Shown here: positions 22,391-31,000 of the stretch, piece after piece | How positions within the stretch are numbered: the first letter of the stretch is position 1 | How the letters are laid out: each line of letters opens with the position of its first letter | Assembly (NCBI GenBank): GCA_905620445.1 | Contig: CAJQTP010000031.1 | Location: 1-34,506, forward strand | Origin: an uncultured Candidatus Thioglobus sp. | GTDB lineage: Bacteria; Pseudomonadota; Gammaproteobacteria; PS1; Pseudothioglobaceae | Direction of reading: 5' to 3' | Length of the DNA stretch: 34,506 nt | The notes under the pieces: model-generated | Databases searched by the model: none | Told to the model about the DNA's origin: nothing | Seen by the model: the letters and a program-made list of their open reading frames with translations, nothing else | Made by a program: the position numbers and the translations under genes

Positions 22391-22421
22391 AGGGCAGTAT
22401 GAAAATACTGCCCTTTTTTTA
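22391..22421 (+). terminator. Intrinsic terminator of the amtB transcript
   Basis: AGGGCAGTAT gaaa ATACTGCCCT then TTTTTT. Confidence 0.9.
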
Positions 22422-28439: not shown

Positions 28440-29087
28440 ATGGCTTCAGTTAATAATAGCGCAATTAAAGAAAGCGTATCAATTGTAAATAAAAATCTTC
28501 CCAGTTTTGGTAGCGATAAACAATTAGAAGCGTCTATAGGAAAGCAAGTTCGAATTTCTAGAAAAAATGCTGGCGTTACTTTACAGCAACTCTCTAAGCA
28601 GTCACTATTATCAGCCAGCATGCTCTCTAAAATTGAGAATGGCCAAATTAGCGCCTCCTTAAAAACAATCCAACTTATCTGTCACGCGCTTAACATCTCT
28701 ATTACATCATTATTTAAGCAGCACGATAAGGATGTAGAGCCAACCTTTATTAAATCAGGGGAAGGGCTGACAATTGAGAGGGCAGGCTCAGACGAAAGTC
28801 GTCACTATCAATTACTTGGACATAACGTGAGTGGGTCTCTTAAAGTTGAGCCTTGCCTTATTACGGTAACCTCAAGGGATTATGATTTTCCTGATTTTCA
28901 GCACAAGGGAGTCGAATTTATTTACATGCTAAAAGGTGAGATGGATTATTACTATGGCACTAAGATCTATCACTTTAAAAAGGGCGACTCCATATACTTC
29001 GATTCAGACAAGCCGCACGGGCCTAAAAAAATAATTAGTGATGAATGCCAGTTTCTAACCGTTATCTGCTCAAATAATTCGGATTAG
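28440..29087 (+). CDS. XRE-family regulator with C-terminal cupin
   Basis: HTH IGKQVRISRKNAGVTLQQLSKQSLLSASMLSKIENGQISASLKTIQLICHAL; cupin EFIYMLKGEMDYYYGTKIYHFKKGDSIYFDSDKPHGP. Confidence 0.9.
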   Translation: MASVNNSAIKESVSIVNKNLPSFGSDKQLEASIGKQVRISRKNAGVTLQQLSKQSLLSASMLSKIENGQISASLKTIQLICHALNISITSLFKQHDKDVEPTFIKSGEGLTIERAGSDESRHYQLLGHNVSGSLKVEPCLITVTSRDYDFPDFQHKGVEFIYMLKGEMDYYYGTKIYHFKKGDSIYFDSDKPHGPKKIISDECQFLTVICSNNSD

Positions 29088-29238: not shown

Positions 29239-29268
29239 TTGACAATGGAATATTATTTGGCGTATACT
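29239..29268 (+). promoter_or_regulatory. Sigma-70-like promoter of the gmaS-like gene
   Basis: TTGACA (29239-29244), 18-nt spacer, TATACT (29263-29268). Confidence 0.75.
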
Positions 29269-29276
29269 CGAACTTT

Positions 29277-29365
29277 AATTTGCTGTTACTCCATTTTTTT
29301 GGAGTTAAAAAGAGGCATTCGTATAGTAATTAATTTGCCCTCTATAGCTCAATCAACAGCAAGTT
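29277..29365 (+). ncRNA. Candidate structured 5'-leader RNA (three-stem junction) upstream of the gmaS-like gene
   Basis: P1 AATTTGCTGTT(29277-29287)/AACAGCAAGTT(29355-29365), 11 bp with one U-G; P2 ACTCCA(29288-29293)/TGGAGT(29300-29305); P3 AGAGGCA(29311-29317)/TGCCCTCT(29336-29343) with one bulge. Confidence 0.6.
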
Positions 29366-29426
29366 TATTAGTGTTTTTGTTTTGGTTTATATCTTACGAA
29401 TCAAAATAAAAGCATGCTTAGGGGGT

Positions 29427-29457
29427 AAATCTTTAATAGAGATTTTTTTTATTTTTT
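29427..29457 (+). terminator. Weak terminator-like hairpin in the gmaS leader
   Basis: AAATCT ttaatag AGATTT followed by TTTTTATTTTTT, about 13 nt before the ATG. Confidence 0.4.
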
Positions 29458-29469
29458 CGGAGAGATTAA

Positions 29470-30945
29470 ATGACAGATTTAGAACAGCACGTTAACGAGC
29501 CCGGTCGCGACAAACTTGTAAAAGAAGTCAAGGCTAAGATCGAAGCATTGGGCGTTACATATGTATATTATCAATTTGTTTCAGTTACAGGTCGCATTGT
29601 AGGTAAAGGTATTCCTGCTCGACACTGGGAGAGACTCGCTGAAAAAGGATTTCAACTAGTATATGGCTCAACAGCCAACTTATTTGTAGACCGTCACGGA
29701 GATTATATTGGTTATGGTCCTGAATCTTCTGAACTTGTAGGTCTTCCAGATCCTGACACATTTTGTCAGCTTCCATGGGATAAGAGAGTAGCACGTGTTT
29801 TCTGTAGACTTTATAGAAACCGTGAAGAGCGTGAAAATCCAGGTGAAGCATTAACATCAGATTGTCGTGGTAACTTATATAGACAACACAAAGAATTCCA
29901 AGATCAATATGGGCTAGATATGCGTTGCGGTACTGAGCCAGAAATGATGTGGCTAAAGCGTGGCGATGATGGACAGCCAAATGGTGGAGTAACAAAGCCA
30001 AACTGTTACCACATTGATCAGTTTGAAGAGTTGCGCCCTGTGTTTATGAAAGTTATTGAATATTCAGAGCAAATGGGTCTTGATATTATTCAAGGTGACC
30101 ACGAAGATGCGCCGGGTCAATTAGAGCTTAATACCCAGTTTGATGACGTATTAAGAAATGCGGACCGCTTGACGACTTATCGTCAAATTTGTGCGCAAGT
30201 TGCTCGTGAGTTTGGTTTAATTGCATGCTTCATGAGTAAACCTTTTATGGGAGTATCTGCATCAGGCTGTCACCATAATATGTCTTTATGGGAAGGTGGT
30301 AAAGATGTATTCCATCCAGAAATTGCTGGCGAAGGAGAGCTTCCAGGAATGCCTGGAAACTTTATGTATAAAGAGGGTGGTAAGAATACATTTATGCCGG
30401 ACCCTTCAATCGATGAAAAGATGCCTGGTCCAATTGGCCTTAAGTCAATCGGTGGTGTTATTAAGCATTTACCAGCGCTAACTTCAATTGGCTCTTCTAC
30501 AGTAAATTCTTATCGCCGTCTTTGGGATACTGGCTTTTGGGCGCCAATTTTTGCAGATTGGGGTTATCAAAACCGTACATGTGCACTTCGCGTTTCTGCG
30601 CCAGGGCGTTTTGAATACCGTTCAGTTGACTCAATGGTTAATCCTTACTTAATGGGATCAGCGCTATTAAAGGCTATGGGCGATGGTATTGATAATAATC
30701 TTGATGCAGGTGAGCCTGAAGAGCGCAACATCTATGCAGCAATGGAGGCAGGAAAGCAAGTTAAGAAACTTCCTATGTCTTTAGGTGAAGCATTAAATGA
30801 GTTAGAAAATGATGAGGTAATTAAATCATCGATGCCAAATGAAATGTATACAGTTTTTCACCATTATAAGAAAGATGAATGGGAAAGATTTAATGCCACA
30901 GTTACAGATTGGGATTTAGAGACTTATATAGATTGCTTGCCATAG
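29470..30945 (+). CDS. gmaS: Glutamine synthetase-family protein, likely gamma-glutamylmethylamide synthetase
   Basis: GS catalytic-domain motifs (GTEPEMMW, GDHEDAPGQLELN, CHHNMSLW, NSYRRLWDTGFWAPIFADWGYQNRTCALRVSAPGRFEYRSVDSMVNPY); context with mgsABC-like genes. Confidence 0.8.
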   Translation: MTDLEQHVNEPGRDKLVKEVKAKIEALGVTYVYYQFVSVTGRIVGKGIPARHWERLAEKGFQLVYGSTANLFVDRHGDYIGYGPESSELVGLPDPDTFCQLPWDKRVARVFCRLYRNREERENPGEALTSDCRGNLYRQHKEFQDQYGLDMRCGTEPEMMWLKRGDDGQPNGGVTKPNCYHIDQFEELRPVFMKVIEYSEQMGLDIIQGDHEDAPGQLELNTQFDDVLRNADRLTTYRQICAQVAREFGLIACFMSKPFMGVSASGCHHNMSLWEGGKDVFHPEIAGEGELPGMPGNFMYKEGGKNTFMPDPSIDEKMPGPIGLKSIGGVIKHLPALTSIGSSTVNSYRRLWDTGFWAPIFADWGYQNRTCALRVSAPGRFEYRSVDSMVNPYLMGSALLKAMGDGIDNNLDAGEPEERNIYAAMEAGKQVKKLPMSLGEALNELENDEVIKSSMPNEMYTVFHHYKKDEWERFNATVTDWDLETYIDCLP

Positions 30946-30974: not shown

Positions 30975-31000
30975 TGCCCACTTAACGGTGGGCAATTTTT
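30975..31000 (+). terminator. Intergenic intrinsic terminator-like hairpin between gmaS and mgsA
   Basis: TGCCCAC ttaacg GTGGGCA then ATTTTT. Confidence 0.65.

Follow-up and report, generated by a model that had tools for sequence, protein, structure and literature searches.

A genus-specific structured RNA leader upstream of gmaS in Pseudothioglobus/SUP05-type marine bacteria, and its possible role as a stabilising 5′ untranslated region

The gmaS-like gene of a Pseudothioglobus/SUP05-type marine gammaproteobacterium is preceded by a 195-nt leader that is real, genus-specific, and undescribed in Rfam and in the literature searched. Comparison of 24 orthologous loci supports a structured RNA leader with compensatory changes. 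The explanation that we tentatively favour, at somewhat less than an even chance, draws on analogy with ompA: a structured 5′ UTR of the gmaS-mgsABC mRNA, whose main role would be intrinsic and concern stability and translation. The window referred to below is the whole stretch of DNA analysed, 34,506 nt in length; the promoter, the leader, and the gmaS-like and regulator genes all lie on its + strand.

The source organism was placed by comparison of the GmaS protein, for which the relatives at 97–99% identity are recorded as SUP05 cluster bacterium, Candidatus Pseudothioglobus aerophilus, and uncultured Gammaproteobacteria, with Thioglobus GmaS records slightly more distant than this set. The gene order comprises a betaine-homocysteine methyltransferase-like gene, an XRE-cupin regulator gene (28440–29087), the leader, the gmaS-like gene (29470–30945; 491 aa, glutamine synthetase family), and thereafter glutamine-amidotransferase, GXGXG, and glutamate-synthase-domain genes, a set that would fit mgsABC. 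No NCBIfam model reached its equivalog cut-off for the gmaS-like product, and the gmaS assignment is based on the neighbourhood together with the glnT/glxBCD (= mgsABC) arrangement known from SAR11 (PMC3160333), not on an equivalog model. Between gmaS and the amidotransferase gene lies a GC-rich hairpin, TGCCCAC-TTAACG-GTGGGCA (30975–30994), followed by ATTTTT, and similar hairpins are visible at the equivalent place in congeners. This hairpin may fix the ratio of gmaS to mgsABC.

Transcription is predicted to start from a near-consensus sigma-70-type promoter (29239–29268), situated ~200 bp upstream of gmaS and composed of TTGACA (29239–29244), an 18-nt spacer, and TATACT (29263–29268). With 11 of 12 consensus matches it is the top promoter match within 14.5 kb, and it is conserved in all 24 orthologues; the preliminary description had given the same −35 and −10 boxes. 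The 30 bp of the promoter show 87% mean pairwise identity across the orthologues, and the spacer is 79% identical. In several congeners the −10 box is located inside a perfect palindrome, GGAGTATACTCC, which is a candidate operator. The first pair of P1, the outermost stem of the leader, follows the −10 box by 7–9 nt in 24 of 24 aligned sequences (about 8 nt here), which places P1 at the very 5′ end of the predicted transcript.

The adjoining XRE-cupin gene, a candidate regulator of this promoter, is syntenic in all 24 orthologous loci and also in L043; its product is PuuR-like in NCBIfam, with a score far under the cut-off. This synteny, the unusually conserved spacer, and the palindrome would be in keeping with a regulator that binds the promoter DNA, with the RNA fold as a minor accessory. 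We consider control of this kind rather improbable as the principal explanation, given that it leaves unexplained why P1 and P4, G.U pairs included, covary 8–150 nt downstream of the promoter. Transcriptional control by the XRE-cupin protein in addition to the RNA leader is likely.

The orthologues share one layout (24/24), in the order promoter, P1, P4, G-run, weak AU hairpin, U-tract, SD, and ATG. P1 is formed by a 5′ arm, AATTTGCTGTT (29277–29287), and a 3′ arm, AACAGCAAGTT (29355–29365), both identified by folding and alignment, and the 11-bp stem proposed earlier is indeed present. Stacked on P1 is the hairpin P2 (ACTCCA-TTTTTT-TGGAGT, 29288–29305), whose U6 loop had also been correctly described; it has these letters in the nearest relatives, and reappears with different letters in several lineages. 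The hairpin P3 (29311–29343), which pairs 29311–29317 with 29336–29343 and contains a bulge, is found where it had been placed, but this form is limited to the nearest relatives (L002–L007). Although the features listed earlier are all in place, the listing missed the strongest hairpin, P4 (29371–29415), which has an 18-bp AU-rich stem (29371–29388/29398–29415), as well as a conserved, SD-like AGGGGG (29420–29425) that is unpaired in the consensus. Further downstream is an AU hairpin, AAATCTTT-AAT-AGAGATTT (29427–29445), correctly located before SD and ATG together with its U run, but weak, with one G-C pair and a folding energy of −3.9 kcal/mol including a G.U extension. The U-tract, T8-A-T6 (29443–29457), directly precedes the SD region, CGGAGAGATTAA (29458–29469).

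The 5′ 101 nt of the leader have a folding z of −3.7, and one of 200 shuffles folded equally well. A complete congener genome served for comparison, in which 400 kb contained 71 ORFs preceded by 180 nt or more without an ORF; among these, gmaS had the most structured upstream region (z −5.2) and also the largest T count, 14 of 15 positions in its richest 15-nt stretch close to the start codon. A similarly U-rich tract precedes the SD of an oligopeptide-binding-protein gene, OppA-like by eye, in another locus (L144; G006:C1, ~1054158–1055783, minus strand), and some further genes in these genomes may share the pre-SD U-tract.

In a MAFFT alignment of the 24 orthologues, 95.8% of the P1 cells are paired, and four of nine pairs have been changed on both sides (GC/AU, CG/UA, UA/GC, and GC/AU). 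As for the compensatory changes envisaged in P1, P2, and P3, those in P1 were thus observed, but P3 has been swapped for unrelated hairpins in other lineages, or for no clear hairpin. For the whole structure, 84% of cells are paired, compared with 41–57% when partners are slid by 1–3 columns, a comparison that favours the unslid version since a single member supplied the structure. For that reason, all possible helices were scanned without bias, and with no helix named beforehand, covarying cells put P1 in first place and P4 next. The covariation score of the whole structure was 0.257 versus 0.166 in shuffles, and none of 500 shuffles scored as high. Mapped by parsimony onto the gmaS tree, P1 shows 19 pair-keeping versus 7 pair-breaking changes, and P4 shows 23 versus 17. 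Double changes in one step are few (three in P1 and three in P4), the remainder having passed through G.U. The G.U pairs in these helices, of which P1 has many, show selection at the level of RNA, since they would not be favoured in an inverted repeat acting as DNA.

Conservation along the leader is uneven. The P1 arms have mean pairwise identities of 80% and 71%, the P4 stem 69%, the P4 loop 46%, the U-tract 90%, and the SD region 97%. The sequence enclosed by P1 is only 40% identical and varies in length from 57 to 75 nt. With the intergenic stretch upstream of the promoter as neutral yardstick (49%), the P1 interior evolves like neutral DNA; for comparison, gmaS is 61% identical at third codon positions and 96% at first and second positions. 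The drifting interior, set against arms, U-tract, and SD that are all retained, indicates that the P1 stem matters and that the enclosed sequence does not. Folded alone, the interior has a mean z of −1.1, with values near or above zero in about a third of the sequences.

Among 29 genomes of the genus, gmaS is present with its 5′ end in sequence in 24, and all 24 have the leader. A covariance model, R1, was built from these same leaders, so that its 24 matches arise by construction and the informative part is the lack of extra copies. R1 gave one strong match per genome, always before gmaS, in 11 of 11 high-quality genomes (E 1e-11 to 1e-24). No further leader copies were found before other genes, and weak second R1 matches (E ≥ 0.16) are mostly antisense on the same site. 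In the 10 other genera of the order, no genome matched at E ≤ 0.01. Within the family, G073, from another genus, shares the promoter layout and may have a P1 but lacks P4 and the G-run, and its upstream sequence is identical to L043; among relatives with a similar promoter, L043/L141 is the nearest, and P4 and the G-run are missing there. G036, of the same family, shows none of the leader layout. As the preliminary description had suggested, the leader lies outside the Rfam families: Rfam 15 at gathering cut-offs gave no matches in the window and none in 20 orthologous loci, and permissive thresholds returned chance microRNA models only, with neither the glnA nor the Downstream-peptide motif among them. 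Nothing relevant to a leader or riboswitch of gmaS was found in the literature searched.

The leader had originally been interpreted as a metabolite riboswitch, with a P1–P2–P3 aptamer followed by a terminator. This architecture is not supported, given the unconserved P1 interior, a second hairpin that is lineage-specific, a weak terminator, and the lack of conserved alternative pairing. A ligand pocket would be expected to be near-invariant at an evolutionary distance where the first and second gmaS positions are 96% identical, and the 40% identity of the P1 interior, against 49% for neutral sequence, is the strongest argument that the comparison provides against the proposed aptamer. An aptamer core with highly conserved unpaired residues is absent within P1, while AGGGGG and the pre-SD region are still conserved.

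As for the terminator, a U-run is present, but the stem has a single G-C pair and a folding energy of −2.6 to −5.2 kcal/mol in most sequences, it is broken in L009, and we do not retain it as an intrinsic terminator. It is not listed by a terminator pattern scan that requires three G-C pairs. The clear examples of terminators in these genomes, such as those at 22418–22387 in the window and after a tRNA gene in G006, are GC-rich.

Across the orthologues, no conserved mutually exclusive pairing or antiterminator backed by covariation was found. The AAUCUUU segment has two possible partners, the hairpin arm and AGAGAUU at the SD, but its letters are near-invariant and therefore uninformative, and the SD alternative is broken in L010. 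Two other candidate pairings were rejected. Pairing of the G-run with the P1 interior (P3) reaches −16.2 kcal/mol only in the source sequence and is at chance level in most others, and pairing of the P1 5′ arm with a distal GGYAAAU site involves G.U in some lineages and an A.C mismatch in others.

A riboswitch of different build would have to place its pocket in P4, AGGGGG, and the pre-SD region instead of inside P1, and its ligand, for example gamma-glutamylmethylamide, methylamine, glutamine, or glutamate, would on binding shift a terminator or the exposure of the SD. A conserved, covarying leader with an unpaired G-run, a hairpin and U-tract ahead of a nitrogen gene, and two possible partners for AAUCUUU is what such a switch might look like, and the apparent lack of Hfq, CsrA, and ProQ (see below) makes protein-free control attractive. 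We nevertheless regard a riboswitch as unlikely. The P1 interior is unconserved, no mutually exclusive helix is conserved, both the weak hairpin and the SD alternative are broken in individual orthologues, a single gene in a single genus is targeted, and L043/L141, the closest of the relatives that have a similar promoter, does without P4 and the G-run. A specific version, in which a genus-specific RNA switch for methylamine/gamma-glutamyl nitrogen assimilation would sense through P4, AGGGGG, and the pre-SD region and expose the SD by repartnering of AAUCUUU, without Hfq, CsrA, or ProQ, appears quite improbable. The hairpin and U-run ahead of the gene could also recall peptide-coupled attenuation, where translation of a short leader ORF chooses between alternative hairpins. 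This is very improbable: no conserved short ORF with a ribosome-binding site was found among the orthologous leaders, the lineages have no ATG, GTG, or TTG ORF in common, such ORFs almost never have an SD, and leader lengths differ by amounts that are not multiples of three.

A stabilising, translation-favouring 5′ UTR is the explanation that we favour. The strong promoter would yield an mRNA with a 195-nt structured leader, in which P1, built from the first transcribed bases, would seal the 5′ end and impede 5′-end-dependent (RNase E-type) decay. P4 and the small AU hairpin would hold the remaining leader in local folds, leaving the U-tract and SD single-stranded for ribosome (S1/16S) loading, in line with the general role of U-rich tracts in bacterial initiation. 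A longer mRNA life and enhanced translation are inferred from this arrangement, and the start site is likewise predicted. For ompA, PMC2777011, citing Emory 1992 and Arnold 1998, describes 5′ UTR elements that stabilise this mRNA. Two properties expected of an ompA-like leader are found here, namely a stem a few nucleotides from the predicted transcript start (24/24), and selection on that stem at the RNA level, as seen from P1 covariation, the helix scan, and the tree. RNase E is present in three genomes ~99% complete or better (G006, G028, and G001); searched with Pfam models, these genomes gave no match to Hfq, CsrA, or ProQ, while controls were positive. Rivals that need these proteins are thereby weakened, and among the protein-free mechanisms that are left, a stabiliser requires the fewest assumptions.

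Some observations weigh against this favoured reading. In several orthologues, including the source sequence, P1 is absent from the preferred fold of the complete leader; in the source sequence it competes with an alternative pairing peculiar to that sequence, caused by the AGGGGG–P3 interaction noted above. Cotranscriptional folding may still favour P1 where the full-length fold does not. The predicted SD accessibility in the full ensemble also spreads widely across sequences, from 0.00 to 0.75. Furthermore, a plain stabiliser leaves the retention of P4 and AGGGGG unexplained. Their retention would suit control of the leader by an antisense RNA or a protein acting in trans on either of them, but with Hfq, CsrA, and ProQ, which are global RNA-binding regulators, undetected in the three near-complete genomes and no candidate partner at hand, we judge such a factor to be rather unlikely.

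Pseudothioglobus/SUP05 bacteria are common marine organisms that are hard to grow, and the above search of three of their small genomes found no Hfq, CsrA, or ProQ. Retention of the 195-nt leader in all gmaS orthologues compared implies that, even in such genomes, selection acts on the control of methylamine nitrogen use at the RNA level, and the leader is a defined element bearing on the expression level of a key C1/N operon. The R1 model can be used for finding it in metatranscriptomes.

Other gmaS genes have different upstream regions. An Oceanospirillaceae-type leader (L049, L050, L052, L054, L061, and L087), ~90 nt before gmaS, has the pattern GCTT..GGACCT..ACCAA/TTGGT..AGGTCC..AAGC. Like the present leader it has a predicted promoter-near stem around a small hairpin, but the sequence is unrelated, R1 misses it, and covariation support is minimal with six sequences; the five loci of this type that were scanned had no Rfam match. 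In other gammaproteobacteria (L062, L063, L066, L067, L069, L080, L081, and L086), repeated ATTGGTCTA/AATTGTCC-like boxes and GGGTATACC are present upstream of gmaS, resembling by eye GntR-type operators.

Intrinsic terminator and attenuator leaders also present a hairpin and then a U-run ahead of the first gene, but the gmaS hairpin is weak, as given above, and lacks a conserved antiterminator. The glutamine riboswitches of marine bacteria and cyanobacteria (glnA and Downstream-peptide motifs) are likewise RNA leaders of glutamine synthetase-family nitrogen genes; the gmaS leader differs from them in having no Rfam match and no conserved core inside P1. Hfq acts on ompA, and was not found in the three Pseudothioglobus genomes searched. 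There is no sequence relationship between the ompA 5′ UTR and the gmaS leader, the P1 stem of the latter encloses a variable interior of 57–75 nt, and stabilisation is only predicted for it. The similarities to ompA and to 5′-terminal stem-loop stabilisers concern the architecture: a stem at the extreme 5′ end, a further hairpin, single-stranded stretches before the SD, and the presence of RNase E.
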